Assembly: GCA_017552715.1 (NCBI GenBank)
Contig: JAFZOW010000040.1
Location: 33,484 to 97,483, forward strand
DNA: 64,000 nucleotides
From: Lachnospiraceae bacterium
Lineage (GTDB): Bacteria; Bacillota; Clostridia; Lachnospirales; Lachnospiraceae
Reading direction: 5' to 3'
The position numbers were made by a program, and so were the translations under genes. The notes under the pieces were generated by a model. The model had not been told where the DNA came from. It made no database searches and worked only from the letters and a program-made list of their open reading frames with translations. The stretch's first letter is position 1, and each line of letters begins with the position of its first letter. Below are positions 18,937-34,311 of this stretch, piece by piece.

Positions 18937-19827
18937 ATGGAAAAAGAAGAGCGGGTCGTAAGATCACGCAGTGACATACTTGATACGGTAAAGACGGCGC
19001 TCTTTATCATCGGGGTGAGCAGCCTGGCTGTGGCACTGATCGTGCTTTTAAAGTTCCGGCTGGATGACAGCCGCACCCGTCGCATCACGGAAGAGCTGAT
19101 GCAGCGTTCCGGTATCGAGCATGCCGAGAGCCAGCAGGGAGTGGGGACACCCTATACGCCTGCGGACGCGCAGCCCACGGGAGGAACGGTGGAAGAGGTG
19201 CCTCCCGCAGAGATGCTTCCGGAGTATGCTTCTCTTTATGCGGAGAATCCCGAGCTGGCAGGCTGGCTCTGGATCGAGGGGACGAAGATCGATTATCCCG
19301 TGATGCAGAGTCCGGAACGGCCCTGGTATTATATCCACAGGGATTTTTACGGAAAGGATAATTCCAACGGCAGCCTTTTTGCGGACGAAGCCTGCGTGAT
19401 CGGCAGCGGTACCGCAGCGAAGGCTTATGCCGACGGTACCCATCCCGGGGCTAATGTGATGATCTACGGTCATCGCATGGGGAACGGAGAGATGTTCGGG
19501 ACCCTGGGAAAATGGCGGGATCAGAATTATGCCCGCGAGCACAGCATCATCTGTTTTGACTCGCTCTATGAGCACAGGAAATACCAGGTGATGGCGGTGT
19601 TCATCTCCCGCATATATAACAGTGACGAGGATGCCTTTAAGTACTATCAGTTTTTTGTGGCGGATTCGGAGCGGGAGTTCAATGAGTTTTATGAAAGTGT
19701 GAAAGCACTCTCTTTTTTCGATTTCGGAGTAGAGGCTAGCTACGGCGATGAGTTCATCACCCTTTCTACCTGTGATTACTGGACGGATGACGGGCGGCTT
19801 GTGGTGGTGGGAAAGAGGATCGAATGA
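18937..19827 (+). CDS. srtB: Class B sortase
   Basis: 296 residues. One N-terminal membrane anchor (about residues 22-45) is followed by the sortase barrel. The class B opening is NPELAGWLWIEGTKIDYPVM. The catalytic triad is H179 in YGHRMG, C279 in LSTCDYW and R287 in DGRLVVVGKR. The enzyme acts outside the membrane and joins surface proteins to peptidoglycan or pilins. No LPxTG-like substrate is visible in adjacent genes, so substrates are probably elsewhere. It overlaps the following SGNH gene by ATGA. Confidence 0.93.
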   Translation: MEKEERVVRSRSDILDTVKTALFIIGVSSLAVALIVLLKFRLDDSRTRRITEELMQRSGIEHAESQQGVGTPYTPADAQPTGGTVEEVPPAEMLPEYASLYAENPELAGWLWIEGTKIDYPVMQSPERPWYYIHRDFYGKDNSNGSLFADEACVIGSGTAAKAYADGTHPGANVMIYGHRMGNGEMFGTLGKWRDQNYAREHSIICFDSLYEHRKYQVMAVFISRIYNSDEDAFKYYQFFVADSEREFNEFYESVKALSFFDFGVEASYGDEFITLSTCDYWTDDGRLVVVGKRIE

Positions 19828-21227
19828 AGGGTTTTCTGGAGTGGATCAAAACTTTTTTCCGTATCCTTTGGCGGAGACACCGTAAAGCCTGCATCGGCAC
19901 GGCGATCCTTGTGCTGGCGGTGATCATCGGAGTTTCGGCCATCGTACATCAGCAGAAGAAAAAGGCGGTGGCGGCTAACGAAGGGCAGGAGGCGGAGGTG
20001 TTGCTTCCGGCGGATGATTACAGCGGGATCTTTGACGCTCCCAAGGAGGGGGCGGGGGTGACCGTAAATGCCAACGGCGAACGGGTCCGTGTGGACGAGG
20101 CTACCGGCGAGGAGATCATTGACCCTGCGGTGCTGGCGGAAAGGCCGGGAGTGCGGGACGGATATCTGAACCGCTGCGCTTTCCTCGGTGATTCCCGTAC
20201 CGTCGGTATGGTGAGCTACGGCTTTATCTCGGATGAGGACGCCCTGGCCCAGGTGGGTATCTCTCACATGGCTTATGCGGGCTATACCTTCACACAGAAT
20301 TCCGGCAAGCAGTATACCATGCGTTCCTTCCTGGCCGAGCACAACGGAGACGTGCTCTATGTGGGTCTGGGTGTGAACGGCATGAACGGCATCGACGAGG
20401 ACAGCTATGAGCGGAGCTATAAGAATCTGGTGGAACAGATCATGGAACAGGCTCCGGACAGCCGTGTGGTGCTCATGGCCATATGGCCCGTGGACGATGA
20501 GGGCATGTACAAAAACTCGGTAAAGAACGAGTGGATCGATAAATACAATCAGTTCCTGAAGGCCCTGGCGGTGCATGAAGGGATCAATTACCTGGACGTG
20601 GACACCATCTTAAAGGATGAAAAGGGCGGACTGAAAAAGGAATACGACGGCGGTGACGGACTGCACTGCAATGCTAAGGCCTATGAGGTGATCCTGAAGT
20701 ATATCGTTTCCCATGCGGTTCCCGGCATACCCGATGACGGGGAATACAAGGTTCATTATGTGCCGCCCCGCGGTCAGTACAAGGATATGGTGATGGATCC
20801 CAATAAGACTCCCACTCCGGTACCCGTGATCACGGATACGGAAGGGGAGGAGGAGCTTTCCCCCACACCGGAGGAATCTCCTACGCCTACACCCACACCT
20901 ACGCCTACACCGACGCCCACACCCAAGGACAAGCCTACGAAGGAGCCCACGGAGGCGGATCCCACCGAGGGAGTGACCGAGACTCCTACACCGACGGAAG
21001 GTTCGGATGAGCCTACGCCGGAACCGACGGAGGAGCCTGAGCCTACGGATGTCACACCCAAGCCTACCGGCGACGCGGATGAGACACCTACGCCCTCCGG
21101 CAAGCCCACTCCGGAGGAAACACCTACGGAAGAGGTGACGCCCACGGAGGGAACACCTACACCGGAGGAGGAGGCCACACCTTCGGCGGAACCCACGCAG
21201 GAAAGCGGAGAGAGCGGGGAGACATAA
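19824..21227 (+). CDS. Secreted SGNH/GDSL-type hydrolase with Thr/Pro/Glu-rich tail
   Basis: 467 residues. A basic N-terminus and one membrane segment (about 22-43) suggest a signal anchor. The catalytic domain (about 115-300) has GDSRTVGM with nucleophile S124, GVNGMNG as the Asn block, and D278-G-L-H281 as the Asp/His pair. SGNH enzymes are esterases or acetylhydrolases acting on carbohydrate or cell-wall esters. From about residue 335 to the end the protein is a low-complexity Thr/Pro/Glu tail with TPTP repeats, which may span the wall. No sorting signal ends it. The 4-bp overlap with the sortase suggests joint work at the cell surface. Confidence 0.85.
   Translation: MKGFLEWIKTFFRILWRRHRKACIGTAILVLAVIIGVSAIVHQQKKKAVAANEGQEAEVLLPADDYSGIFDAPKEGAGVTVNANGERVRVDEATGEEIIDPAVLAERPGVRDGYLNRCAFLGDSRTVGMVSYGFISDEDALAQVGISHMAYAGYTFTQNSGKQYTMRSFLAEHNGDVLYVGLGVNGMNGIDEDSYERSYKNLVEQIMEQAPDSRVVLMAIWPVDDEGMYKNSVKNEWIDKYNQFLKALAVHEGINYLDVDTILKDEKGGLKKEYDGGDGLHCNAKAYEVILKYIVSHAVPGIPDDGEYKVHYVPPRGQYKDMVMDPNKTPTPVPVITDTEGEEELSPTPEESPTPTPTPTPTPTPTPKDKPTKEPTEADPTEGVTETPTPTEGSDEPTPEPTEEPEPTDVTPKPTGDADETPTPSGKPTPEETPTEEVTPTEGTPTPEEEATPSAEPTQESGESGET
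20826..21224 (+). repeat. Low-complexity Thr/Pro/Glu coding repeat
   Basis: Irregular 6-bp and 12-bp periods (CCTACG, ACACCG and variants) encode the PTPT and TPTE runs of the SGNH protein tail. The third base varies, so selection is on the protein rather than on the DNA. Confidence 0.75.
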
Positions 21228-22197: not shown

Positions 22198-24441
22198 ATG
22201 AGAGAAAACAAAAAAGAAATGAATGCAGCGATCGAGGCCCTGCTTTCGGAGCTTACGCTTTCGGAAAAATGCCGCATGATCCATGGTGTCGGATTTTTTG
22301 TGAGCGGTGACGTGCCCCGGCTGGGCATTCCCGGGATCGTATCCAGTGATGGCCCCTGCGGTGTGCGTAACGATTTCTATCCCGACCGATGGTATGTCAT
22401 CGGTACCACGGCCGACTATGTCAGCTATCTGCCCAGCAATTCCGCCATAGCTGCCAGCTGGAATACGGAGCTGGCTCACGACTGCGGCATGGTTCTGGGG
22501 CGTGAGGCCAGGGGCCGCGGCAAGGACGTGATCCTGGCTCCGGGCATCAATATCAAGCGCAATCCCCTCTGCGGGCGGAATTTTGAGTATCTGAGCGAAG
22601 ATCCCTATCTGGTGAGCGAGATGGCAGTGCAGATCATCGAGGGTATACAGGAGAATGATGTGGCTGCCTGCGTAAAGCATTTCGTGTGCAACAACCAGGA
22701 ACTTGACCGCTATTCCGTTAATGCGGAGCTGGATGAGCGGACTTTCCGGGAGATATACCTCCCCGGCTTTGAGGCGGCCATTAAGCGTGCAAAGAGCTTA
22801 AGCATCATGGGCAGCTACAACCTCTTCCGCGGGGAACACGGCAGCGAGAGCCGTTCCCTTCTTACGGATATCCTGCGGAAGGAGTGGAAGTACGACGGCC
22901 TGGTATTCAGTGACTGGGCGGCCAATCACGATACCCGGGATGCGGCGGAGAGCGGCCTGGATGTGGAGATGGGGATCAGCGCGGATTTCGAGAATTATTA
23001 TCTTGCGAAGCCCCTTGAAAAGGCTGTGGAAGCTGGCGAGATCGATGAAGAGTGCATCAACGAAAAGGTCCGGAACATCCTGCGCTTCCTCATCCGGGTA
23101 CGCAAGATCGTGATCGAATATACGAAGGCTGCGGGCCGCGGAAAGAAGGCGAAGGCCGTAGCTGTGCCCGTGAGCGACCGGGATCCCGGATACTACGGCG
23201 GCCTGGTGATGCATGAATATGCACTGAAGGCAGCCCGGGAGACGGTGATCCTTCTGAAGAACGAGAAAAAGCGTCTGCCCCTGAAGCCTTCCACCACAAG
23301 ACGCATCCTGGTGATCGGCGACAACGCCAACCGCGTGCATGCCAATGGCGGCGGCAGTGCCGAGATCAAAGCCCTCTATGAGGTGAGCCCTCTGCTGGGT
23401 CTTGCCAGGGAATACGGCGGCAACACCGAGGTGCATTATACCCCCGGTTACTATGTGCCCAAGAAGATAAGGGACGGGGCCAACTGGCAGGAATTCTCCG
23501 TCATGGATACTTTTTCTACGGCCCCCGCGGATGACAAAGGCTATTCCGCCAACGAGAAGAAAGAGAAGAAGCGCCTTAAGGACGAAGCCGTGCGTCTGGC
23601 GAAGGAATATGACGATGTGATCTTTATCGGCGGCCTGGATCATGATCTGGATGTGGAGGGTGCCGACCGGAAGAGCATGAAGCTTCCCTACGGACAGGAT
23701 GAAGTGCTGAACGCGGTGCTGGATGTGAATCCGGATACCATCGTGGTGATGGTGGCGGGCAGCCCCGTAGACATGCGCGCCTGGAAGGACAGAGCCAAAG
23801 CCATCCTGTGGATGAGCTATAACGGTATGGAAGGCGGTACGGCCCTTGCGGAGATCATCAGCGGTACGGTGTGTCCTTCCGGTAAGCTGGCGGAGAGCAT
23901 GCCCGGCTGCTATGAAGATACGCCGGTGGCGCATTTCGGGGAATATCCGGGGAGAAAGCTCACGGCGGCCGAGAAGAAGCGGATGAAAGCCTGCAACCGG
24001 ACGGGAGAATACAAAGAAGGTGTGTTTGTGGGATACCGTTATTATGAAAAGTTCAAGGTACCCGTGCAGTTCCCCTTCGGTCACGGCCTGTCCTATGCGG
24101 AGTTTAAATACAGTGATATGACGGTGAAGAAGAATGCCGGGGTGATCACGGTATCCGTAAAGGTAAAGAATACGGGCATCGTCACGGCCAAGGAAGCGGT
24201 GCAGCTCTATGTGGGCGAAAAGAAGGTTTCCAAAGAGAACCCCGTGAAGGAACTGAAGGGCTTTGTCAAGACGGAGCTTAAGCCCGGACAGAGTAAGGTA
24301 CTGCGTTTCCGCCTGACGGAAAAGGAACTTTCGCACTTTGATGCGAAGGAAGGGGCATGGAAAGCGGACAGCGGGGCATACCTCATCTCCATCGGCAGCT
24401 CCAGTGCGGATATCCGCTGCAGCAGGAGCGTAAAACTCTAG
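22198..24441 (+). CDS. Glycoside hydrolase family 3 (beta-glucosidase-like)
   Basis: 747 residues without a signal peptide, so probably cytoplasmic. The N-terminal TIM barrel has the NFEYLSEDPYL and CVKHFVCNNQE motifs and the nucleophile D239 in LVFSDWAANHDT. The alpha/beta domain follows (KAARETVILLKNEKKRLPL, VVMVAGSPVDM). The C-terminal fibronectin-III-like domain contains YYEKFKVPVQFPFGHGLSYAEF. Such enzymes release glucose or xylose from oligosaccharides taken up by importers. An extra charged insert lies at about residues 425-470. It is followed by a strong terminator. Confidence 0.93.
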   Translation: MRENKKEMNAAIEALLSELTLSEKCRMIHGVGFFVSGDVPRLGIPGIVSSDGPCGVRNDFYPDRWYVIGTTADYVSYLPSNSAIAASWNTELAHDCGMVLGREARGRGKDVILAPGINIKRNPLCGRNFEYLSEDPYLVSEMAVQIIEGIQENDVAACVKHFVCNNQELDRYSVNAELDERTFREIYLPGFEAAIKRAKSLSIMGSYNLFRGEHGSESRSLLTDILRKEWKYDGLVFSDWAANHDTRDAAESGLDVEMGISADFENYYLAKPLEKAVEAGEIDEECINEKVRNILRFLIRVRKIVIEYTKAAGRGKKAKAVAVPVSDRDPGYYGGLVMHEYALKAARETVILLKNEKKRLPLKPSTTRRILVIGDNANRVHANGGGSAEIKALYEVSPLLGLAREYGGNTEVHYTPGYYVPKKIRDGANWQEFSVMDTFSTAPADDKGYSANEKKEKKRLKDEAVRLAKEYDDVIFIGGLDHDLDVEGADRKSMKLPYGQDEVLNAVLDVNPDTIVVMVAGSPVDMRAWKDRAKAILWMSYNGMEGGTALAEIISGTVCPSGKLAESMPGCYEDTPVAHFGEYPGRKLTAAEKKRMKACNRTGEYKEGVFVGYRYYEKFKVPVQFPFGHGLSYAEFKYSDMTVKKNAGVITVSVKVKNTGIVTAKEAVQLYVGEKKVSKENPVKELKGFVKTELKPGQSKVLRFRLTEKELSHFDAKEGAWKADSGAYLISIGSSSADIRCSRSVKL

Positions 24442-24486
24442 AAAACAGCCGCTTTTTGCACCAACAAATGTGAAAAAGCCATGAAC

Positions 24487-24520
24487 AAAGGCGCTCTCCG
24501 CTTGCGGGGGGTGCCTTTTT
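24487..24520 (+). terminator. Strong terminator after the GH3 gene
   Basis: A stem of up to 14 bp from AAAGGC to GTGCCTTT, including G-T pairs, is closed by a CTTG tetraloop and followed by TTTTT. Confidence 0.88.
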
Positions 24521-24530
24521 GTAATACAAT
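24502..24530 (+). promoter_or_regulatory. Possible promoter of the exosortase G operon
   Basis: TTGCGG at 24502-24507 and TACAAT at 24525-24530 with a 17-bp spacer. The -35 box lies inside the GH3 terminator stem. This is the only promoter-like site ahead of the packed operon. Confidence 0.4.
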
Positions 24531-24599
24531 AAACTTAGTAAGATGGGGGAGTTTTCCCGGCGAAAAATGTAAAAAATCACCAAAGAACGGACGATACAC

Positions 24600-24974
24600 A
24601 TGATGGCGGACCAGGACCGGCCGGAAGCGGTATATTGTTTCCATTACCTGCTTCCCATGACCCACAGCGGTGATAACCTGCGGGAACATATGCACAGTCA
24701 CACGCTGGAGATAACGATATACATCAGCGGGGACCGGATGACCAATGAGATGTTTACGCAGAACGAGAGTTACGCCGGGGATGTGCTCCGCAGATATGAA
24801 GGGCAGTACTTTAACGACCTGCCGGAGTTTGCGGGCAATGCCAGCATAGAGAACATCGGGGAAGTTTTCTTTTACATGCTGGATCAGACCATGAAGGCAT
24901 TGGGGCTTACACTGAAGCGACTGGAGATCGGAGAGAATCCGTTACAGCAGTATGTGATATCCACATACATGTAG
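24600..24974 (+). CDS. 6-pyruvoyltetrahydropterin synthase-like protein, exosortase G-associated
   Basis: 124 residues resembling the T-fold of PTPS/QueD. HMHSHTLEITIYI (H30, H32, H34) matches the zinc-binding HGHxYxV segment, and YFNDLPEFAGNASIENIGE matches the LNDxxxxxxPTxExxA segment with conserved Glu. LEIGENPLQQYVI matches the LxETxxxxxxY end. The catalytic Cys before the His pair in QueD is not seen, so a normal reaction is doubtful. It matches my memory of the PTPS-related family found beside XrtG (TIGR03112). A second copy-like protein lies at 29529. It is the first gene of the operon; the ribosome site is weak. Confidence 0.75.
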   Translation: MMADQDRPEAVYCFHYLLPMTHSGDNLREHMHSHTLEITIYISGDRMTNEMFTQNESYAGDVLRRYEGQYFNDLPEFAGNASIENIGEVFFYMLDQTMKALGLTLKRLEIGENPLQQYVISTYM

Positions 24975-24989
24975 CAGGATGGTGACGGG

Positions 24990-26474
24990 ATGAAGAGGAC
25001 AGAAATGATCAGAAGGAGAATACTGGCTTTCGGTGCCGCGGCAGCTTTGCTGCTGGCGGGTTTCCCTTCCTATGCCTTTGCATCGGAGGAAGATGTCGTA
25101 TCGGAAAATGCGGCATTGTCCGAAAATGAAGCGGTATCGGAAAATGAAACCGTTTCGGAGGATGTTCTGCCGCCCGAAAAGGAAGAGCTGCCCGAAGAAG
25201 AGCTTCCCAAAGAAGAGCTTCCCAAAGAGGAAGAGCTTTCCGGGGAGGAAGCCGAAGAACTGACGGAAGGCGCCGGGGAAGCAGCCGTAAGCGAAGAGGA
25301 GACAGCGGAGGCGGAGCAGGAAAAGGCTACGGCCGGGGAGTCCGGGGAGTCAGCCGCCTTCGAAGGCATCTGCATAGACGGGGATTTCAAGGACTGGCGC
25401 GGTGTGCCGAAGAGTGAAGGCACGGGAAGCATACAGCTGGCAGCCGTGGTGCAGGACGAAAACTATGTGTATGTGTACCTGCGGGACGACGGAAACTGCT
25501 GCGCCGCCTGGGCAGGTCCTCATAATAACGGAAAATTCAGCTTTGTATCGGATCTTGGCTATACCAGCCTGTTCCAGCTGCATAATAATCCGGCCCGTAT
25601 CAGCGGTGTGGACGGAGCTTCCGTAAGCTACCGATTCAGCTGGGGCGATGCTTACGGGGAATGGGAGATCGCCGTACCGGTGGATCACCTTCCCATCAAC
25701 GGCGGAAGCTACAGCTTCGGTTTCTATCAGGGCGACCGTTTTGTGAATGACGCCGTGGATGAGCGGAACCGGAGACAGCAGCCCGATCCGGATCCCGATC
25801 CCGGACGTATCGTATATGACGGCCTGTACGGTGACTGGACCGATTATCCCCACGAGCTGATCCATTATGCCACCGACGGCACCCAGGAACGTGTAGTGGA
25901 CGGCGAGGGAGCGCTTTTTGTTGACGGCTCCACCCTTTACGGGCACTGCATCACCACCATGGCGATACAGGTGGAGCAGGGCGGTAACGATGTGCTGGAA
26001 GGCGTGGTGCTGCGCATCAACGAGAGTACCGATTGGAAGGATCTCTTCGAATTCCGTTTTGCCACCGTGGATGCGGCCGGTAATATCGACTGGCATCCGC
26101 AGCTGGAGTATCTGCCCCTGGGCACCTATGAATACATCATCACGGATGTGAACGGCTGGGGGAACGCGAAAAACCTGGATGAACTTAAAGCGCAGGGTGT
26201 GGATAAGGATGGCTACTACGGCCGTATCACAGTGACCGTTGCACCCACCACCACCGAATGCGAATGGTGGCTGGATCTGTCTCTTCTGGCTGCACGCATG
26301 GGCGTGGATGAGACGGACATCAAGACCATAGAAGTAAAGTATGAGCAGATCGGTGACCGCTGGCTGAAGACCGCCGGAGCTTCCTCCGGAGCAGCAGCCG
26401 GGATCGCGCTGGGAGCGGCCATTGCTCTCGGTGCCGTGATCTCACGTAAGAAGAGCGGGGATCAGGAAGAATGA
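24990..26474 (+). CDS. Secreted Firmicu-CTERM-type protein, likely exosortase G substrate
   Basis: 494 residues. A signal peptide (1-31, ending SYAFA) is followed by acidic repeats: VSEN/LSENE units and LPKEE units (about 35-110). Two related modules start at about 127 (CIDGDFKDWRGVP) and about 277 (YDGLYGDWTDYPH). The C-terminus has a short spacer KTAGASSG, an Ala/Gly-rich membrane segment (about 464-482) and the basic tail SRKKSGDQEE. This three-part tail fits the Firmicu-CTERM sorting signals paired with XrtG. The stop overlaps the exosortase start by ATGA, so enzyme and substrate are co-translated. Carbohydrate binding by the DW modules is possible but unproven. Confidence 0.8.
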   Translation: MKRTEMIRRRILAFGAAAALLLAGFPSYAFASEEDVVSENAALSENEAVSENETVSEDVLPPEKEELPEEELPKEELPKEEELSGEEAEELTEGAGEAAVSEEETAEAEQEKATAGESGESAAFEGICIDGDFKDWRGVPKSEGTGSIQLAAVVQDENYVYVYLRDDGNCCAAWAGPHNNGKFSFVSDLGYTSLFQLHNNPARISGVDGASVSYRFSWGDAYGEWEIAVPVDHLPINGGSYSFGFYQGDRFVNDAVDERNRRQQPDPDPDPGRIVYDGLYGDWTDYPHELIHYATDGTQERVVDGEGALFVDGSTLYGHCITTMAIQVEQGGNDVLEGVVLRINESTDWKDLFEFRFATVDAAGNIDWHPQLEYLPLGTYEYIITDVNGWGNAKNLDELKAQGVDKDGYYGRITVTVAPTTTECEWWLDLSLLAARMGVDETDIKTIEVKYEQIGDRWLKTAGASSGAAAGIALGAAIALGAVISRKKSGDQEE

Positions 26475-27064
26475 AGCTGATACTGGGGCTTGTAGGGGGT
26501 CTTATCTGGCTCTACGTGCTCCATGTTCTTACAAAAGCAAAGATCAATTTCTGGCGCTTCCTCTGGGGGAGCGCCGGCTTGTTTATTCTGCTGATGGTCT
26601 TTGTGCGGCCTTACGTGACCCAGCCGCTGGCTCAGGCTGTGGCTGCCATTGCTGGCTTTTTCGGCAATGCCACGGGAACCTTTACCCCTTACTTCCGCTT
26701 TGCGACGATCTTTATCCCCACTGCCGGCGGGGCCATGACCATGCAGATCGATTTCGAATGTTCGGGGATACTGGAGATCCAGGCCTTTCTCTGCCTGCTT
26801 GCATTTTTCGAGATCTATACCCGTCAGGAAAAGATCATGATAGGGCTGCTGGGCAGCTTTTATATCATCCTGGCCAATGCGATCCGCATCGTCATCATCT
26901 GCGAGATCATCCATCTGGGCGGGAATGAGTACTATAACGTGGCACACACCTATGTGGGGAGGATCTTCTTCTACGTTCTTTCCGTGATGCTGTATTTTTA
27001 CGTGTTTACCAAACCGCAGGTAGTGAAGATGCGGGTGGGGAGTTTCAGCTATGACAATGATTGA
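26471..27064 (+). CDS. xrtG: Exosortase family protein XrtG
   Basis: 197 residues with about six membrane helices. The exosortase triad is visible: C97 in MQIDFECSGILEIQ, R139 in ILANAIRIVIICE and H159 in YYNVAHTYVGRIFFYVL. Exosortases are membrane Cys proteases/transpeptidases that process C-terminal sorting signals. Size and motifs fit the Gram-positive XrtG type rather than EpsH. It lies between its probable substrate and an associated glycosyltransferase, overlapping both genes (4 and 14 bp). Confidence 0.92.
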   Translation: MKLILGLVGGLIWLYVLHVLTKAKINFWRFLWGSAGLFILLMVFVRPYVTQPLAQAVAAIAGFFGNATGTFTPYFRFATIFIPTAGGAMTMQIDFECSGILEIQAFLCLLAFFEIYTRQEKIMIGLLGSFYIILANAIRIVIICEIIHLGGNEYYNVAHTYVGRIFFYVLSVMLYFYVFTKPQVVKMRVGSFSYDND

Positions 27065-28436
27065 CCGCTTTATGCATTCCTTCATATTCTGGGGAGCATG
27101 GATCATCATCCCGGTGATCATGGAGATCATCCCCTCCTTCGGGGGCTTCTTTCTTCTGCTCTACCGCAGGTTCAAGCTGCGCAGGACCTATAAGAAACCG
27201 GCGCTTTACCCCGAGCTTTCCGTCATCATCCCGGTCTACAACTCCGAGGATACCCTGGAAGCCTGCATACGCTCGGTGGAAATGAGCACCTATCCCAGTG
27301 AACGCATCCGCATCTTTCTGGTGAACAATCACGGACGGGACAACAGTTTCCGTGTATTCGGCGAGGCGCAGAAAAGGTTCCCGAGGCTGCGCATGCAGTG
27401 GCTGGAGGCGGAGCAGGGCAAATCCCGTGCCCTGAACCTTGCGCTGTATAACAGCGAAGGAAAATACATCATCAACCTGGACAGTGACGGGGTGCTGGAA
27501 CCCCATGCCCTGACCAATCTGGTGGACAAATTTGAAGCCAATCCCGACCTGAACGTTATGACGGGAGCCATCCTTACCACACCCTCCATGATCGAGGAAT
27601 ACCCGGCGGGCCTTAAGAGGCTTTTGCGCAAACTGGAATTCATGGAATACGGACAGGCCTTCCTGGCGGGCCGCAGCTTTGCCTCCGAGACCAACTCCCT
27701 TTATACGCTTTCCGGAGCCTTTTCGGCTTTCCGGAAGTCGGTGATCCTGAAATCCTGGATGTACAACACCAATACCATCTGTGAAGATACACATATCACC
27801 TTCCAGATGCGCTACATCCAGAAGGAAAAGGTGGAGATCTGCGAAAACGCCATCTTTCTGGTGGATCCCATTGAAGGTTTTAACAAACTCTATACCCAGC
27901 GGCAGCGCTGGCAGAGAGGAAGCCTGGAGGTGGCCAAGCAGTTTCTGAACGATAATGAGGATTTCGGAAAGTCCTTCACGGATGTGAACGTACATACCCT
28001 GCTCTATGACCATACCTTTGCCTTTCCCCGGCTGATCTGGTACCTGGCGCTTCTGTGCCTGCTTGCTATGAACTATTCCAGCAGGATGATCATCTTCTCC
28101 ACCGCAGCCATTTTCCTGATCTATATCATCGTGGGGCTGCTCTACTTTTTATCCGTCAGTATTTTCCTGAAGGAATTTGACGATCTGGGGCATTATTACA
28201 GAAAGAACTGGTGGGTGGTGTGTCTGCTCCCGGCCTTTAACCTGATGGTCTTTTTCATACGTATGGCGGGTATCATAAACAGCATAGGGACCGACAGTGC
28301 ATGGAAGACAAGGAATCTCTCGGACGAAAAGAAGGCCTTTACGGATGTGGTGAAGGAAGAATTCCGGAAACCGAAGGAGTGGCTCGGAAAACTGCGTGAG
28401 CTTGTAAATAATGAAGAAGCGGAGGGGTTGGGATGA
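27051..28436 (+). CDS. Membrane glycosyltransferase family 2, exosortase G-associated
   Basis: 461 residues. An N-terminal membrane segment is followed by a cytoplasmic GT-A domain: LSVIIPVYNSEDTLEACIRS, the metal/nucleotide DxD-like NLDSDGV, the acceptor-side ED in ICEDTHITFQMR, and QRQRW, the processive-enzyme QxxRW motif. Three to four membrane helices (about 325-415) follow. This is the cellulose-synthase/hyaluronan-synthase-like layout and matches the GT2 family known beside XrtG (TIGR03111). It probably makes or extends a glycan joined to, or exported with, the sorted protein. Sugar specificity is unknown. Confidence 0.9.
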   Translation: MTMIDRFMHSFIFWGAWIIIPVIMEIIPSFGGFFLLLYRRFKLRRTYKKPALYPELSVIIPVYNSEDTLEACIRSVEMSTYPSERIRIFLVNNHGRDNSFRVFGEAQKRFPRLRMQWLEAEQGKSRALNLALYNSEGKYIINLDSDGVLEPHALTNLVDKFEANPDLNVMTGAILTTPSMIEEYPAGLKRLLRKLEFMEYGQAFLAGRSFASETNSLYTLSGAFSAFRKSVILKSWMYNTNTICEDTHITFQMRYIQKEKVEICENAIFLVDPIEGFNKLYTQRQRWQRGSLEVAKQFLNDNEDFGKSFTDVNVHTLLYDHTFAFPRLIWYLALLCLLAMNYSSRMIIFSTAAIFLIYIIVGLLYFLSVSIFLKEFDDLGHYYRKNWWVVCLLPAFNLMVFFIRMAGIINSIGTDSAWKTRNLSDEKKAFTDVVKEEFRKPKEWLGKLRELVNNEEAEGLG

Positions 28437-29518
28437 GAGATAAAACGGCAAAACGCTTCTTTGCCCTGGCGGCATCCATAGCACTGGTGCTGGGCTGTAT
28501 CATGGGGGTCATCGGCTGGATCTTCATCGAGCGTTTTGAAGAGGGCGTGCTGCAGGTGGTGGCGGATCAGCAGGATGCCTATGTGCAGCTGGTGCTGGAC
28601 CAGATCAACTTAAAAGAGAACCGGGACGACGAGGATATCATCACGGGGATCCTGGCATCCCTGGATTCTTCCACCAATAAATACTGGACATTCTCCCGGG
28701 GAGAGGCCATGCTCTTTGTAAAGGATGTACTGGAGACCAACAAGTATAAAGGTTTTACCACAGCAACCTATTATGTGTCCGACAGCGCAAGAGAGTTCCT
28801 GGATTCCCTGCGCTTAAACCGCGTGAGCCATTCCAACATACGCATCGAAGACAAGGAGTTTGTGGCCAGCGGTGTGACCTTCCTTTATAACGATGCGGAA
28901 TACCGTCTGTGCCTGCTCACCAACCGGGAAGTGATCCTGGATAACAACGATTTTCTGAAGGCCAAGGTGAACGTGGGGATCACCTTCCTGCTGGCCCTCT
29001 TCCTCATGGTGGTGGGGACCATGTGGTTTGCAAGACGCCTGGGCATCTATCACCAGCGTCTGGAAGAGCGGGAAAACACCATAGCGGAGCTTACACGCAA
29101 TGTATCCAATCTGAATACGAAGCTGCTGGTGCGGACCACCTATGATACCAAGCGCACCCTCTTCCAGGAGAGCATGATACGGGATTTCCTGCAGCGTATA
29201 CAAGCCAAGGGCATCCATCCCGTTACCATGGCGGTGATCAAATGTACCCATGAGCGCAGTTTCCTGGATAAATCCCAGATCCTGCTGGATAGGGGCGTGC
29301 TCCGTTTCCAGCTGGAAGGGACCGCAGAGCTTCTGGACGGGGCGGATGTGCCCGGAAAGGTTCTGCTTGTCTTTATCCGCTGCGATCATGACAATGCGAT
29401 GCTGAGCCTGAACTTTTTAATGAACATACAGACACAGATCCTGGGAGTGGACCAGTGGAACGGCCAGGGAGATATCCTGACCTTCTCCGAGCAGCTGCTT
29501 TCCAGGACGAGACAATAG
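28433..29518 (+). CDS. Membrane protein of the exosortase G operon, sensor-like layout
   Basis: 361 residues, not recognised as a named family. It has two membrane helices (about 9-31 and 181-205) with an extracellular domain of about 150 residues between them, the layout of a Cache-type sensor. A short coiled coil (about 210-232) follows, then a 125-residue cytoplasmic domain. Its pattern (TMAVIKCTHERSF, VLLVFIRCDHDNA) faintly recalls a GGDEF fold without the GGDEF motif. That likeness is weak. ATGA overlap with the glycosyltransferase gene and the PTPS-like gene 10 bp downstream place it firmly in the operon. Confidence 0.7.
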   Translation: MRDKTAKRFFALAASIALVLGCIMGVIGWIFIERFEEGVLQVVADQQDAYVQLVLDQINLKENRDDEDIITGILASLDSSTNKYWTFSRGEAMLFVKDVLETNKYKGFTTATYYVSDSAREFLDSLRLNRVSHSNIRIEDKEFVASGVTFLYNDAEYRLCLLTNREVILDNNDFLKAKVNVGITFLLALFLMVVGTMWFARRLGIYHQRLEERENTIAELTRNVSNLNTKLLVRTTYDTKRTLFQESMIRDFLQRIQAKGIHPVTMAVIKCTHERSFLDKSQILLDRGVLRFQLEGTAELLDGADVPGKVLLVFIRCDHDNAMLSLNFLMNIQTQILGVDQWNGQGDILTFSEQLLSRTRQ

Positions 29519-29528
29519 AGGATAAGAG

Positions 29529-30023
29529 ATGAGCGATATCGGTGAACAGCTGGAAAACAGGCTATTCCGGGAATACCGGCTGAAATTCTACTTAAACGGC
29601 AATCATTATGTGATCATCGGGAACCGCAAGGGAGAGACCCATCCCCACACCTGGGAATTTACCATCAACATCCTGGTGGGACGGGAGAGTTTTGTGGAAT
29701 TCCGTTATTTCGAAAAAGGTGTGGAGGCACTGCTGGCTCCCTATCAGAACCGGGTGCTCAACGAGGTGGATCCCTTTAACGGCGTGGTGCCTTCCCTGGA
29801 GAACATGGTGGAGTTTTTCGGACGAAAGATACAGGATATCGTAAAGAGCGTGGGTGGCCGTCTGCTTTCCATAGAGGGCAGTGAGACTCCGACCCGCAGT
29901 TATATCATAAATATGAACGATGCCTTCAACAGCTATGAGCTGGAGGCTTATACGAAACAGGTAAAAGACGAAGTGATCGACACGGTGCTGGACGATCTGA
30001 TGGATTCGACGGAAGGAGTCTGA
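29529..30023 (+). CDS. Second 6-pyruvoyltetrahydropterin synthase-like protein
   Basis: 164 residues. The N-terminal 120 align by eye with the protein at 24600: THPHTWEFTINILVG (H38, H40) matches HSHTLEITIYISG, and PSLENMVEFFGRKI matches ASIENIGEVFFYML. H26 in NHYVI could be the third zinc ligand. As in the first copy, the Cys nucleophile of QueD/PTPS is not seen. About 30 extra C-terminal residues are helical and acidic. It lies directly before the large PTPS_related membrane protein. Confidence 0.75.
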   Translation: MSDIGEQLENRLFREYRLKFYLNGNHYVIIGNRKGETHPHTWEFTINILVGRESFVEFRYFEKGVEALLAPYQNRVLNEVDPFNGVVPSLENMVEFFGRKIQDIVKSVGGRLLSIEGSETPTRSYIINMNDAFNSYELEAYTKQVKDEVIDTVLDDLMDSTEGV

Positions 30024-30025
30024 AC

Positions 30026-32473
30026 TTGGAGGACAGAAAAAAACTGCCGGTCTTTCTCATCTCGATCCCCGTCTACCTGGTGCTGGCTGTAGTTACGGTA
30101 CTGCTGATCAAAAACAGCGGGATATATCCGGCCGGTGCGGATACCATGTGCCATGTTTATAAAGGGGATGTACTCTATGAGGCGCTGGGCCGGGGGGAAT
30201 TATATCCTCTTTACGATCCCCTCTGGTATAACGGAGTGGAGATGCTGCGTTACTGGGCACCCTTTCCGGTATATGTACTGGCCTTTTGCCAGCTGCTGGG
30301 TGGCGGGGATCCCATACAGGGCTACCTTATCTTTGTGGGAGCGGTCTTCTTTTTCGGAGCCGTAGTTTTTTCCTGGCTGGGGCTTCAGATGAGACGGCCT
30401 TTCATAGGGGCATTTTTCGGGATACTCTGGTTCTTTCTCCCCAATAATGTTTATGCGCTTTTCAGGGAAGGAAATCTTCCCCGTTCCCTCAGCATGATCT
30501 TTCTGCCGCTTTTTCTCTACCATGTGGAACAGTATCTGCATGAAGGACAGCGTTACCGCCTGGCCCTTACTTCCGTGCTCTTCCTTCTGATAGCCATGTG
30601 CCATTCCGGTTACGCGGGAATGCTCGCTTTGTCCATGCTCCTGTTCCTGTTCCTTTACGGCGTGATGAACCGTTGCTTTGCACGCTGCGGCTTTCTGCTG
30701 CTCTCCATCCTTTCCGGCTATGTGCTGCTGGGGATATGGCTCCTGCCGTCCCTGATCGGCGGTATCACCTCCACGGATTCCTCCGAGGTCATGGCCAGCT
30801 TTTTCCAGAGTGCCTTTATATCATTGGATCCGTCCCGCTGGTTCAGGGAAGGGCCCATTGAGTTCTATTTCGGACTGGCGGCCTTCCTTACGGCCCTTTT
30901 CGGACTGCTCTGTGCAAAGCGCAGGAGTCAGCCGGCTTTTGCCACAGCCCTGCTCATCTTTTTCGGGACCACTGCATCGGCTTATCCGCTGCTTAAGATC
31001 CTTCCGGGCAGCCAGTATCTGTGGATGCTCCGTTTCATCTCCATTGCCCTGTGCATGATCCTGTACGGGTTGCTGGCCTGGAGCAGCCTGAAGCCCCCCC
31101 TGCAGATCGCCGTGGTACTGCTCTTATGTGCGGACTGTATCGCCGGCTTTTCTTCCCTGGTGCTGGGAGACGGCAGCGGACGCGAACCGGAGGAGCGATA
31201 TGCTGTGGCGGAAGAGGAGACCCTCATGGATATTGCCAAAGAAGAGACCACGCAGCGTCTTGCCCTTATGGAACTGAGCACTCTTGGGGCAGACGGAGCT
31301 TATCTCTTAAGCGGTCACGGGAAACAGCTGGCGGGAAGCTTTGGTGCCGGCTGGCAGTCCGCTACCACGGCAGTCAACATCACACAACTGAACCGTGCCC
31401 TGGAAAATGCCCAATATGCCTATCTTTTCGACCGTGCTCTGGAGATGGGCAATGACAGCGTACTGATCCGTCTTTCCTGTGTACCCATGAGCTTTGACCG
31501 TTATGAAGCCATGGATGAAGATGCGGAGCGCAGCGGATACCATCTCATCGCGGAAAATGATGACTGGAGGCTCTATCACGCAAAGCTGCCGGAATGCTTC
31601 GGGGTGGTGAGTCATTACGATTCCATAGGAATAGGCAGCGGTGCCGGGATCATCTCCCTTTCTTTCCCCGCCGTGGAGGAGACCACGGATCCGGATCTGA
31701 GCCATTACAGCTTTGAAGAACTCTCTTCTTACCGTTCCGTATATTTAAGCGGTTTTGAGATGAGTGACCGCGCCGCGGCGGAAGCCCTGGTGAAGAAGCT
31801 TGCCGATGCCGGAGTGCGTGTGATCGTTCTGGCCGACGGTATGCCGGAGGATCCGTCCCTTCGCCGTAAGAGCTTCCTGGGAGTGGACTGCAACAGCATA
31901 CGCTTCCGCAACGGTTATCCCGAGATGGAGGTACACGGAGAGATCCTGAACACGGATCTGTTTGCCGCCGGCTTTTCCAACTGGGATACGGTGTATCTGA
32001 CCGGTCTGAAGGAAAGCTACGGGGCCGTGATGGAGGACGGACTGGAGCTGGATTTCTTCGGCACGGCCTATAATGAGAATATCATTTTCCTGGGACTGAA
32101 CCTTTCCTATCATTATGCACTGACCCATGACCGTTCTGCGGGGCTCATCATGCAGGAGTGTTTCCAGATGGAGCCGGCGCAGCTTCCGGAGCGCAGGATC
32201 GTGGAGCTTGATGTGTCGGGAGACTTCAGGAATATCGTTATCGAATCTCCGGAAGACGGAGTTAATACCACACTGGCCACACATGACAGCTTCGATGCCG
32301 ACCGGCCGGTGGAGGATCGCAATCATCTTCTTTATGTGGATTCCGGTACCACACGGATCCGCGTCCGTTATCCTTATCTCTGGCAGGGAGCGCTGGTCAG
32401 CCTGTTCGGCGTGCTGCTTTTTGTCGTCACCCTCGTTGCAGCCGGAAAATACGAGGAAAACCGTACGGAATGA
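30026..32473 (+). CDS. Large PTPS_related (PF10131-like) integral membrane protein
   Basis: 815 residues with a TTG start 7 bases after GGAAGGAG. Residues 1-370 carry about nine to ten membrane helices and the family segments ADTMCHVYKGDVLYEAL, LYDPLWYNGVEMLRYWAPFP and LFREGNLPRSLSMIFLPL. These match my memory of the 6-pyruvoyl-tetrahydropterin synthase-related membrane family, which looks like a GT-C glycosyltransferase. Residues about 390-790 are extracytoplasmic and a last helix (about 785-807) ends the protein. An early D39 after GA (PAGADTM) fits the GT-C catalytic Asp. It probably transfers a lipid-linked sugar outside the membrane. Confidence 0.82.
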   Translation: MEDRKKLPVFLISIPVYLVLAVVTVLLIKNSGIYPAGADTMCHVYKGDVLYEALGRGELYPLYDPLWYNGVEMLRYWAPFPVYVLAFCQLLGGGDPIQGYLIFVGAVFFFGAVVFSWLGLQMRRPFIGAFFGILWFFLPNNVYALFREGNLPRSLSMIFLPLFLYHVEQYLHEGQRYRLALTSVLFLLIAMCHSGYAGMLALSMLLFLFLYGVMNRCFARCGFLLLSILSGYVLLGIWLLPSLIGGITSTDSSEVMASFFQSAFISLDPSRWFREGPIEFYFGLAAFLTALFGLLCAKRRSQPAFATALLIFFGTTASAYPLLKILPGSQYLWMLRFISIALCMILYGLLAWSSLKPPLQIAVVLLLCADCIAGFSSLVLGDGSGREPEERYAVAEEETLMDIAKEETTQRLALMELSTLGADGAYLLSGHGKQLAGSFGAGWQSATTAVNITQLNRALENAQYAYLFDRALEMGNDSVLIRLSCVPMSFDRYEAMDEDAERSGYHLIAENDDWRLYHAKLPECFGVVSHYDSIGIGSGAGIISLSFPAVEETTDPDLSHYSFEELSSYRSVYLSGFEMSDRAAAEALVKKLADAGVRVIVLADGMPEDPSLRRKSFLGVDCNSIRFRNGYPEMEVHGEILNTDLFAAGFSNWDTVYLTGLKESYGAVMEDGLELDFFGTAYNENIIFLGLNLSYHYALTHDRSAGLIMQECFQMEPAQLPERRIVELDVSGDFRNIVIESPEDGVNTTLATHDSFDADRPVEDRNHLLYVDSGTTRIRVRYPYLWQGALVSLFGVLLFVVTLVAAGKYEENRTE

Positions 32474-32500
32474 TTTTTTTTCATATCCCCCCATAAAAAA

Positions 32501-32539
32501 GCATTTTTGCGCCGTATCTTTATCAACGGCGGGAAATGC
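32501..32539 (+). promoter_or_regulatory. Long hairpin in the leader of the vWA lipoprotein gene
   Basis: GCATTT (32501) pairs with AAATGC (ending 32539), and inside it CGCCGT pairs with ACGGCG around a 10-base loop, with a small internal bulge. It lies 12 bases before the GGGAGG ribosome site. No T run follows, so a translation or stability role is more likely than termination. Confidence 0.5.
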
Positions 32540-32565
32540 CACGGAATAAAGGGAGGTATGAAAAT

Positions 32566-34311
32566 ATGAAAAAGAATCTGAAGAGAAGAAGCATAGCCAT
32601 GATACTGCTGGCGGGACTGACCCTCAGCGCCTGTGCGGGGAAGGATGGCGGTATTGATGATCCGGGAACTGACGGAAAGCAGACGAAGACCTATTCCGAC
32701 GAGGAGATCGAAAAGCGCATCCGGAAGGTCGGGAAAAAGTATGACGGCCTGTACAGCTACGAGGAAGAAGGCTGGGGCTTCCGCGGCAAGTCGGCGATGA
32801 ACTCCGGTGCGGTGATGATGACCGAAGCTGTGGCTGAGGCGGGTGATTATGAAGCTGCGGATTACAGCCTGTCCATTGCGGATCCCGGGCCCGTGGAAGA
32901 TGTGGACTGGAGCAGGGAAGGCTTTAATGCGGTAAAGGAAAACGGTTTCGTATCTGTAGCCACCCAGCCCTTTTCCACCTTCGGAGCGGATGTGGATACC
33001 GCCACTTACTCCAACTTCCGCCGCAGTGTATATGAACAGGACGGCTATGGCATCAGCGGCGAAGCCATCCGTGTGGAGGAGATGATCAATTACTTCTCCT
33101 ATGATTACGGAAAGCCCGAAGACGGCGAGAAATTCGCTGTGACCACCGTCCTTACGGACTGCCCCTGGAATGAAGATACCATGCTGCTCCGTGTGGGCGT
33201 ACGGGCGGAAGAGATCGAGCCTCAGGGCGGCAGCAATATCGTTTTCCTGATCGACACATCGGGTTCCATGTTTGACAACAATAAGCTTCCGCTGGCGCAG
33301 GAATCCTTCAAGACCCTGCAGAAGAGCCTGACAAAGAATGACACGGTCTCCATCGTGACTTACGCGGGAAGCTCCGAAGTGCTGCTGGAAGGCGCAAAGG
33401 GCAGTGATCACGACGAGATCGAGGAAGCCATCGATTCCCTGGAAGCCTGGGGTTCCACTAACGGCGAAGGCGGCATCATCAAGGCATACGAGGTGGCCGA
33501 GAAGTACTTCATCGAGGGCGGCAACAACCGCGTGATCCTTGCCACCGACGGGGACCTGAATGTGGGTGTTTCCTCCGAAGCCGGACTCATCGAGCTGGTA
33601 GAAGAAAAGAAGAAGAGCGGTGTGTTCCTTTCCTGCCTGGGCTTCGGCGAAGGCAATTATCAGGACGACAAGATGGAAGCGCTGGCGGATCACGGCAACG
33701 GCAACTATTCCTTCATCGACTGCTCTGCGGAAGCAAAGCGGGTGCTGCAGGACGAGATCTGGTCCACCCTCTTTACCGTAGCCAAGGATGTGAAGTTCCA
33801 GGTGGAGTTCAATCCCGCAGCCGTAAAGGGTTACCGGCAGATCGGTTATGAGAACCGGGCCATGGCAGCAGAGGATTTTGCAGACGACAGCAAGGACGGC
33901 GGCGAAGTGGGAAGCGGACAGTGTGTGACGGTGCTCTACGAGATCGTGACCGTGGATTCCGACTACGAGATCCCCGGTGTGGAGAGCCGCTACGGCAACG
34001 ACGAGAAGCAGGGCGGAGACAGCGATGAACTGCTGGTGGTGAACATCCGCTACAAGGAGCCGGATGGGGACCGGTCGAAGCTTCTGAACTACCCCGTGAC
34101 CGCAGACATGAAGCTGGACGAGATGGATGAGGATACCTCCTGGGCAGCCGGTGTGGCACAGTTCGGGATGCTGCTGAGATGTTCGGAATACGCAGGGACT
34201 TCCGATTATCAGGGCATCTACGACCGCCTGAAGAAGACGCCCAAGGTGATGGATGACGACTTCCGCGCCGAGTTCCTCTACATCGTAAAGCAGGTGGGAG
34301 ACCTGCAGTAA
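32566..34311 (+). CDS. von Willebrand factor A lipoprotein (YfbK-like)
   Basis: About 581 residues from the ATG at 32566 (GGGAGG 9 bases upstream; the longer frame lacks such support). The signal peptide ends in lipobox LTLSAC. The N-terminal YfbK-type domain contains FSTFGADVDTATYSNFRR and IRVEEMINYFSYDY. The vWA domain has the MIDAS motif DTSGS from D230 and ATDGDLNVG. The DUF3520-like C-terminus follows (RYKEPDGDRSKL). It is probably an extracellular, metal-dependent adhesion or scaffold protein. It is 92 bp after the exosortase G operon on the same strand; membership is uncertain. Confidence 0.88.
   Translation: MKKNLKRRSIAMILLAGLTLSACAGKDGGIDDPGTDGKQTKTYSDEEIEKRIRKVGKKYDGLYSYEEEGWGFRGKSAMNSGAVMMTEAVAEAGDYEAADYSLSIADPGPVEDVDWSREGFNAVKENGFVSVATQPFSTFGADVDTATYSNFRRSVYEQDGYGISGEAIRVEEMINYFSYDYGKPEDGEKFAVTTVLTDCPWNEDTMLLRVGVRAEEIEPQGGSNIVFLIDTSGSMFDNNKLPLAQESFKTLQKSLTKNDTVSIVTYAGSSEVLLEGAKGSDHDEIEEAIDSLEAWGSTNGEGGIIKAYEVAEKYFIEGGNNRVILATDGDLNVGVSSEAGLIELVEEKKKSGVFLSCLGFGEGNYQDDKMEALADHGNGNYSFIDCSAEAKRVLQDEIWSTLFTVAKDVKFQVEFNPAAVKGYRQIGYENRAMAAEDFADDSKDGGEVGSGQCVTVLYEIVTVDSDYEIPGVESRYGNDEKQGGDSDELLVVNIRYKEPDGDRSKLLNYPVTADMKLDEMDEDTSWAAGVAQFGMLLRCSEYAGTSDYQGIYDRLKKTPKVMDDDFRAEFLYIVKQVGDLQ

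Follow-up and report, generated by a model that had tools for sequence, protein, structure and literature searches.

What does the exosortase XrtG of Gram-positive bacteria do with the one tagged protein encoded beside it, and how does that reaction relate to the glycosyltransferase genes among which the pair is found? The question is raised by seven genes (positions 24600–32473, plus strand) within a 64,000-nucleotide stretch of contig JAFZOW010000040.1 from a Lachnospiraceae bacterium (source genome: 3.43 Mb in 134 contigs); we refer to the whole stretch as the window and to the seven products, in gene order, as A to G. A preliminary description of this DNA had taken the genes for a compact XrtG operon with its substrate inside it, and the family identities that it proposed agree with our searches: six of the seven products scored above curated cut-offs (NCBIfam and Pfam), namely TIGR03112 for the PTPS-like proteins A and F, TIGR04145 for the Firmicu-CTERM protein B, TIGR03110 for the exosortase C, TIGR03111 for the glycosyltransferase D and PF10131 for the membrane protein G. 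Judged by its gene content, the operon is another instance of the already known XrtG system, the same set being annotated by NCBI in Lachnospira eligens ATCC 27750. What is new here comes from distant relatives, in which alignment identified a natural exosortase that is fused to its partner and has lost the cysteine. Our best explanation, which we hold tentatively and with a little less than even confidence, is that the operon encodes a polysaccharide-synthase complex that would retain the processed partner B at the membrane and may be nucleotide-controlled.

Product C (26471–27064; 197 amino acids) matched TIGR03110 at 183.9 bits (cut-off 102.75) and also matched the superfamily signature TIGR04178 (NCBIfam), so that the comparison with exosortase models suggested earlier for this product came out in its favour; it is the one XrtG match in the whole genome. 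The residues C97, R139 and H159 are located where the preliminary description had placed them, in conserved columns, and are invariant across the 37 unfused XrtGs that we aligned. Hydropathy predicted five helices; the first loop, the third loop and the C-terminal tail contain basic residues, suggesting that the N-terminus is outside and that C97, R139 and H159 lie near the outer face. Product B (24990–26474; 494 amino acids) is the genome's single Firmicu-CTERM match (TIGR04145: 93.9 bits, cut-off 50, in two stretches of the one open reading frame; NCBIfam). It has helices by hydropathy at residues 11–29 (signal-peptide-like) and 466–484, a Glu/Ser-rich linker, two domains of DGxxxDW type and a C-terminal AGASSG motif followed by the second helix and an RKK tail. 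B is likely the substrate of XrtG, encoded inside the operon as had been claimed. Short B homologues of 220–243 amino acids at four loci (L055, L057, L065 and L103) are without the Glu/Ser-rich linker.

The gene set holds together among relatives. In a family-level set of 27 loci (the window's own, 7 named ones and 19 others from the same family), XrtG was followed directly by D in 27/27 and a PTPS-like domain came after D in 27/27; a PF10131-type G was present in 25, its position in the order varying, and was not found in L053 (a 7.6-kb contig) or L068, and a strongly similar E occurred in 15. The set is more than a chance association, and the neighbours are conserved beside homologues of the exosortase, which was the gene-order comparison proposed for this locus. 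XrtG itself is patchy, occurring in 20 of 299 genomes of the family, in 13 of 398 genomes of a phylum sample at E ≤ 0.001 (9 of them above the cut-off) and in none of 14 control genomes; the window XrtG has its named relatives in Lachnospiraceae and Eubacterium, goat omasum and sheep rumen being mentioned in the titles of two records. In each of the 20 XrtG-positive genomes of the family, TIGR04145 matched a protein close to XrtG (above the cut-off in 19, below it in G078) and no second one with a tail, although this model could miss tail-only proteins; one genome (G066) has an extra partial match without the tail.

A clue to the function of XrtG came from a lineage that does not belong to the family of the window (group codes f26, f70 and f78), in which a B-like domain sits on the N-terminus of XrtG in a single frame of ~400 amino acids (L070:226–1428, L071:9514–10716, L073:109–1305, L093:8540–9736, L100:9195–10391 and five more). 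In 10/10 fused proteins the position of C97 is occupied by Asn (9) or Ser (1), compared with Cys in 37/37 unfused XrtGs (Fisher P = 2e-10, a value that is overstated since relatives were treated as independent). The ten fused rows represent 9 genomes and 7 genus codes, L097 and L098 belonging to one genome and L071, L074 and L099 to one genus code. Dropped from the count were L078/L048 (G309; XrtG shows ECSG), L049/L079 (G406; a distant exosortase) and L038 (stops), and L103 and L104, both with ECSG, stand outside the 37. L001, most of L019–L048 and most of L080–L090 are short copies of loci and were counted once under other ids. R139 is kept in all ten fused proteins and H159 in the nine that can be read at that position (L101 ends before it). 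Conservation reaches 94% or more of unfused XrtGs at 19 positions, 16 of which keep their commonest residue in the fused set, the changed ones being C97, I143 (Val) and F179. Separate partners in sister loci end in IQWSPIPI..., a helix and a basic tail, while the fused proteins read IQW.PFP... (NQW in L101), then at least one charged residue, and pass directly into the first XrtG helix with no tail. BLASTP matched the separate tailed partners of two sister loci to two fused proteins over the partner part (E = 4e-42 and 2e-41).

Between one fused XrtG domain and another, divergence reaches 50%, indicating that the Cys-less gene has long been retained. The fused rows formed one clade in the glycosyltransferase tree (support 97/98; 8 of 10 fused loci, all except L073 and L101, have a glycosyltransferase gene on their stretch) and again, with weaker support (58/91), in an XrtG tree from which the Cys column was excluded, which makes fusion and Cys loss one event and not several. 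Glycosyltransferase and PF10131 genes are kept beside the fused XrtG wherever the contig reaches far enough. With no Cys and no partner tail, handover of the partner to an acceptor by that cysteine is impossible in this lineage, and the persistence of the two gene types indicates that conjugation by that cysteine is not needed there. Read plainly, the XrtG reaction has this partner as its object, and lasting attachment to XrtG seems able to substitute for the reaction. Two genomes of one genus (G604 and G715; genus code g509) differ in this respect, one having a separate Cys-containing XrtG and the other the fused Asn form, by transfer or an old split. The XrtG locus at L078 (genome G309) is probably decaying: its PF10131 gene looks broken and the XrtG frame enters a truncated glycosyltransferase.

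The preliminary description had counted two membrane enzymes of glycosyltransferase type in the operon, and both were recovered. Product D (27051–28436; 461 amino acids; four predicted helices) scored 597.5 bits against TIGR03111 (cut-off 363.95; NCBIfam), the XrtG-associated GT2 glycosyltransferase family. Its next-best named NCBIfam model was PgaC/IcaA (TIGR03937) at 122 bits, far under the cut-off of 422.3, and a PDB sequence search with D returned general GT2 domains only. The motif [QR]xxRW, which we take to be a mark of processive membrane synthases, reads QRQRW in D and is present in 46/46 D homologues; a processive glycosyltransferase does not need a protein acceptor. The motif points to a free polymer, and D may work like a processive GT2, yet it is no member of the PgaC/IcaA family. 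Product G (30026–32473; 815 amino acids; nine helices by hydropathy) matched PF10131 (PTPS_related) at 448 bits (gathering cut-off 26.4; Pfam) and is probably a glycosyltransferase of GT-C type, the family being counted in the GT-C clan, which according to PMC7801869 also includes protein glycosyltransferases. Several relatives have a second GT2 nearby (Pfam for L051 and L069), several have a GtrA-like protein (L051, Pfam) or a small EmrE-like membrane protein (by eye), and YfhO lies beside the cluster at L054 (Pfam) and L056 (by eye); such neighbours fit the addition of sugar from a lipid carrier outside the membrane.

Product E (28433–29518; 361 amino acids), which had been listed as an unassigned membrane protein, indeed has no family above cut-off in NCBIfam or Pfam. 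Its two predicted helices flank a conserved segment of ~150 amino acids that is followed by a variable C-terminal domain (alignment of 13 homologues). The idea, gained by eye, that E is a degenerate GGDEF protein is no more than tentative: by hhalign its C-terminal domain scored 17.9 (13 rows) and 24.4 (19 rows; probability 11%) against GGDEF, and column-shuffled 13-row controls scored up to 21.7. PDB sequence searches gave nothing useful for E, A or F.

Products A (24600–24974; 124 amino acids; no helix by hydropathy; the first gene of the operon) and F (29529–30023; 164 amino acids) scored 71.6 and 119.8 bits against TIGR03112 (cut-off 69.35; NCBIfam), and A also matched PF01242 (E = 7.8e-10; Pfam). 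We assume that in PTPS domains three His are the zinc ligands, a Glu anchors the pterin ring and a Cys is catalytic. Of 63 aligned PTPS-like domains, 62 kept all three His (A included), the odd one out being in L056; all 63 had a Glu/Asp-x-Pro towards the end, and in none, A and F included, did a Cys occur in the stretch from the first His to the HxH. With this Cys missing, and with scores of 19.2 and 18.2 bits against the QueD model TIGR03367, far under the cut-off of 89.25, A and F were rejected as QueD members. Our guess is that the PTPS-like domains are guanine-nucleotide or pterin receptors.

A possible link to cyclic di-GMP (c-di-GMP) appeared on the Lactococcus lactis conjugative plasmid pBV60 (L103:3456–9734), where the order is diguanylate cyclase, EAL protein, B, XrtG, TIGR03111 glycosyltransferase, PTPS and TIGR03766 glycosyltransferase. 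This cluster shares with the window the order from the Firmicu-CTERM protein through XrtG and the TIGR03111 glycosyltransferase to the PTPS-like protein; it differs in that the second glycosyltransferase belongs to TIGR03766 instead of PF10131, the E protein is missing and the two c-di-GMP genes stand in front. Pfam confirmed the GGDEF (8e-38) and EAL (1e-16) domains, the former with its GGDEF motif unaltered. A strong GGDEF domain (E ≤ 1e-30) was present in 20/20 XrtG-positive genomes of the family compared with 41/56 XrtG-negative ones (Fisher P = 0.008, with relatedness uncontrolled; the 56 were sampled by handle number from 279). No PilZ or GGDEF domain was matched in the seven window proteins (Pfam), and no PilZ among the four pBV60 proteins scanned with Pfam (B, XrtG and the GT2 of this plasmid were covered by NCBIfam).

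Parts of the operon are repeatedly fused to one another. Besides the B-like–XrtG fusion at 10 loci, we found PTPS joined to B at L051 (PTPS by Pfam, B by TIGR04145) and an E-like segment joined to PTPS at L050 and L055, where PTPS replaces the C-terminal domain of E and the similarity to E is just 24–30 bits. PTPS is fused to PF10131, for example, at L071, and to PF10131 and a B-like domain at L069 and L076 (Pfam) and at L075 (our own hidden Markov models and the tail); L069:10286–14176 and L076:10388–14251 each place PTPS, PF10131 and a tailed B-like domain in one polypeptide of ~1290 amino acids. At L077 a single frame combines a PF10131 part with a B-like end. Parts that occur fused are commonly taken to associate physically, and the recurrence of such fusions supports the view that the operon parts would form one machine.

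How, then, might this machine work? In our best explanation, D would use a cytosolic sugar nucleotide to build a polysaccharide chain and extrude it, and G would add sugar from a lipid carrier outside the membrane. B would be secreted, have its C-terminal tail processed by XrtG through C97, R139 and H159 near the outer face, and then remain membrane-tethered next to the synthase, where it would serve the polymer as a partner. The membrane protein E would regulate the machine together with A and F, the latter two perhaps by binding a guanine-type nucleotide or a pterin. We infer this polymer, topology, tethering and regulation from the family memberships, the gene order, the single Firmicu-CTERM protein within the operon, the conserved residues and the recurrent fusions.

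Several observations weigh against this explanation. Fusion and Cys loss being one event, they may reflect no more than the loss of sorting in a single lineage. The XrtG of the fused lineage is 22–27% identical to that of the window, and its partners match TIGR04145 weakly: E = 8e-4 for the separate partner of L072 and 0.009 for L071 and L069, the L071 match covering profile positions 2–138 of 191 without the tail; the L100 partner has no listed match, and the cut-off was passed in 0/20 XrtG-positive genomes outside the family. A profile of B (L060 and L056 omitted; 5 of 10 fused rows passed the motif used for cutting the B domain) matched the fused domains with a probability of 12% and all outside rows with 88%, the latter along just 17 columns, among them the domain-cutting motif itself; the latter comparison scored 43.0, and column-shuffled controls reached 17.3. 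The fused-lineage partner was likened to window B because it lies beside XrtG, begins with DGxxxDW, carries the motif-helix-basic tail in its separate forms and shows this weak similarity. Going by these comparisons, we regard the two as counterparts and as no more than likely homologues. No Pfam family, carbohydrate-binding ones included, was matched in window B at E 0.5, and Pfam scans of relatives detected no carbohydrate-binding domain in its counterparts either, so that a CBM9/DOMON-like B, prompted by the DGxxxDW start of each domain, remains a guess. Finally, diguanylate cyclase and EAL neighbours were found in one of the three named clusters examined (a set that excludes one further match, a second L. 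eligens record), and the two others were without them. The GGDEF co-occurrence is suggestive, but relatedness was uncontrolled and it covers 56 of the 279 XrtG-negative genomes; c-di-GMP control was not retained as a general rule.

The alternative that survives best, though we consider it unlikely, is that XrtG works like archaeosortase A and links B to a membrane lipid, giving a B that is lipid-anchored near the synthase. The two enzymes share the signature TIGR04178 and C-terminal processing of the substrate, and in Haloferax the substrate C-terminus receives a lipid in an ArtA-dependent manner and the protein becomes lipid-anchored; the archaeal attachment differs from our system in its setting, a GT2–PTPS operon being unmentioned in the available part of that paper (PMC7157517). 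A protein helix taking the place of the lipid anchor would also explain the fused Cys-less lineage. Against it, B has a membrane helix already before processing. Lipid attachment is compatible in most respects with a synthase complex that keeps B at the membrane.

Next in rank, and likewise improbable in our view, stands a transpeptidase XrtG that would cut B at its C-terminal signal and join it to a glycan made by D and G, producing a surface protein–polysaccharide conjugate. This is close to the earlier suggestion that a glycan is built and joined to the sorted protein; the two glycosyltransferase-like enzymes stand, and the joining is slightly disfavoured. It would account for the intact XrtG residues, for the motif, helix and basic tail of B and for the glycosyltransferase genes conserved beside XrtG. 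The fused lineage, however, keeps its glycosyltransferase and PF10131 genes without the XrtG Cys or the partner tail, and a processive enzyme, as D may be, requires no protein acceptor. An association of exosortases with exopolysaccharide loci was drawn when the PEP-CTERM/EpsH system was proposed (PMC1569441). PEP-CTERM systems (EpsH, cyanoexosortase B) resemble the window in the motif-helix-basic tail, in a membrane enzyme with a conserved triad and in the tie to extracellular polysaccharide (PMC1569441; PMC12188702), loss of cyanoexosortase B having abolished biofilm and left adherence to the polysaccharide defective (PMC12188702). They differ in the number of tagged proteins, 1 to 65 in each genome compared with one in-operon protein in the window, and in the presence of an outer membrane (PMC1569441).

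That XrtG cleaves and releases B as a secreted polysaccharide-binding protein, without transfer to anything, appears very doubtful to us. B does begin with what resembles a signal peptide, contains repeated domains and ends in a tail that looks cleavable, and a cyanoexosortase mutant showed altered abundance of PEP-CTERM proteins in its exoproteome (PMC12188702); in the fused lineage, however, release by that cysteine is impossible unless another protease acts. A scheme in which D and G glycosylate B itself and make no free polymer would draw on the protein glycosyltransferases of the GT-C clan (PMC7801869) and on the Glu/Ser-rich linker of window B, and we consider it highly improbable given that PgaC/IcaA is D's best model besides its own, that [QR]xxRW is found in every D homologue and that the short B homologues have no such linker.

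The synthase complex with a membrane-held B can be extended into a joint claim, which as a whole is a long shot. XrtG would be a near-stoichiometric assembler and not a general sorting enzyme, adding B by its reaction to the synthase complex (the site being perhaps XrtG itself or a nearby lipid); the fused lineage would have hard-wired that product and dropped the nucleophile but retained Arg and His, which would hold the Pro-x-Pro motif of the partner; and the PTPS-like domains, with three His and no catalytic Cys, would be a new class of receptor for a guanine nucleotide (possibly c-di-GMP) or pterin, controlling a Gram-positive polysaccharide synthase. The relatives offer testable predictions in the form of the Cys-less fused exosortase, the small plasmid cluster with its own c-di-GMP genes and the Cys-free PTPS-like domains. 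If our best explanation holds, protein sorting, polysaccharide synthesis and nucleotide control are linked in one membrane machine of gut bacteria.

Among the closest described systems is that of L. eligens ATCC 27750, with a Firmicu-CTERM protein, XrtG, a TIGR03111 glycosyltransferase, a hypothetical protein of ~360 amino acids (an E homologue, 444 bits), a 6-carboxytetrahydropterin synthase-like protein and a PTPS-related membrane protein in the same order; the window differs by the extra first PTPS-like gene A, none being found in the 15-kb stretch of L. eligens. Lactiplantibacillus plantarum LP_RS09090–09075 comprises a Firmicu-CTERM protein, an exosortase and two XrtG-associated glycosyltransferases, and these genes appear, in the passage at hand, solely as over-expressed transcripts of a strain comparison and with no test of their function (PMC12854382). 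The gts operon of Lactobacillus acidophilus resembles PgaC/IcaA and the window in its processive-type GT2, and exopolysaccharide in that species is c-di-GMP-linked; exosortase is unmentioned in the part of PMC6123363 at hand. One exosortase-G-associated glycosyltransferase is tabulated in PMC8951740, with nothing more. In literature searches, whose coverage leaves out most subscription journals, the Gram-positive XrtG appeared by system name solely in a transcript list, wider searches returned no functional test of the system among the papers listed, and a search for a fused or inactive exosortase brought up one paper, on cobalt in Geobacter.

The seven reading frames run head to tail as had been described, with gaps of at most 15 bases and overlaps of at most 14 (in gene order: a 15-base gap, overlaps of 4, 14 and 4 bases, and gaps of 10 and 2 bases); the start of G at 30026 is uncertain because its start codon is TTG. 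A terminator-like hairpin (24494–24511, plus strand) between a GH3 gene and the operon suggests that the latter starts at 24600, evidence that is weak as 14 such sites were found in 24300–32700 and 7.4 were expected. We left the upstream GH3 gene (22198–24441) out of the operon, GH3 occurring among 37 loci only in L013–L015, and likewise the downstream VWA gene (32536–34311), a label borne by no reading frame of the 37 loci; the latter lies 62 bases past the operon and encodes a YfbK-like VWA protein (PF12034 and PF12450). About 3.4 kb upstream of the operon, a sortase-domain gene (PF04203; 18937–19827) overlaps a GDSL/SGNH hydrolase gene (19824–21227), whose product has a long Pro/Thr-rich tail. 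Elsewhere the window encodes a glycoside hydrolase of family 9 that also carries an Ig-like domain (40031–42295) and a Clostridiales-1 RNA (RF01699; 63713–63875; 73.4 bits).

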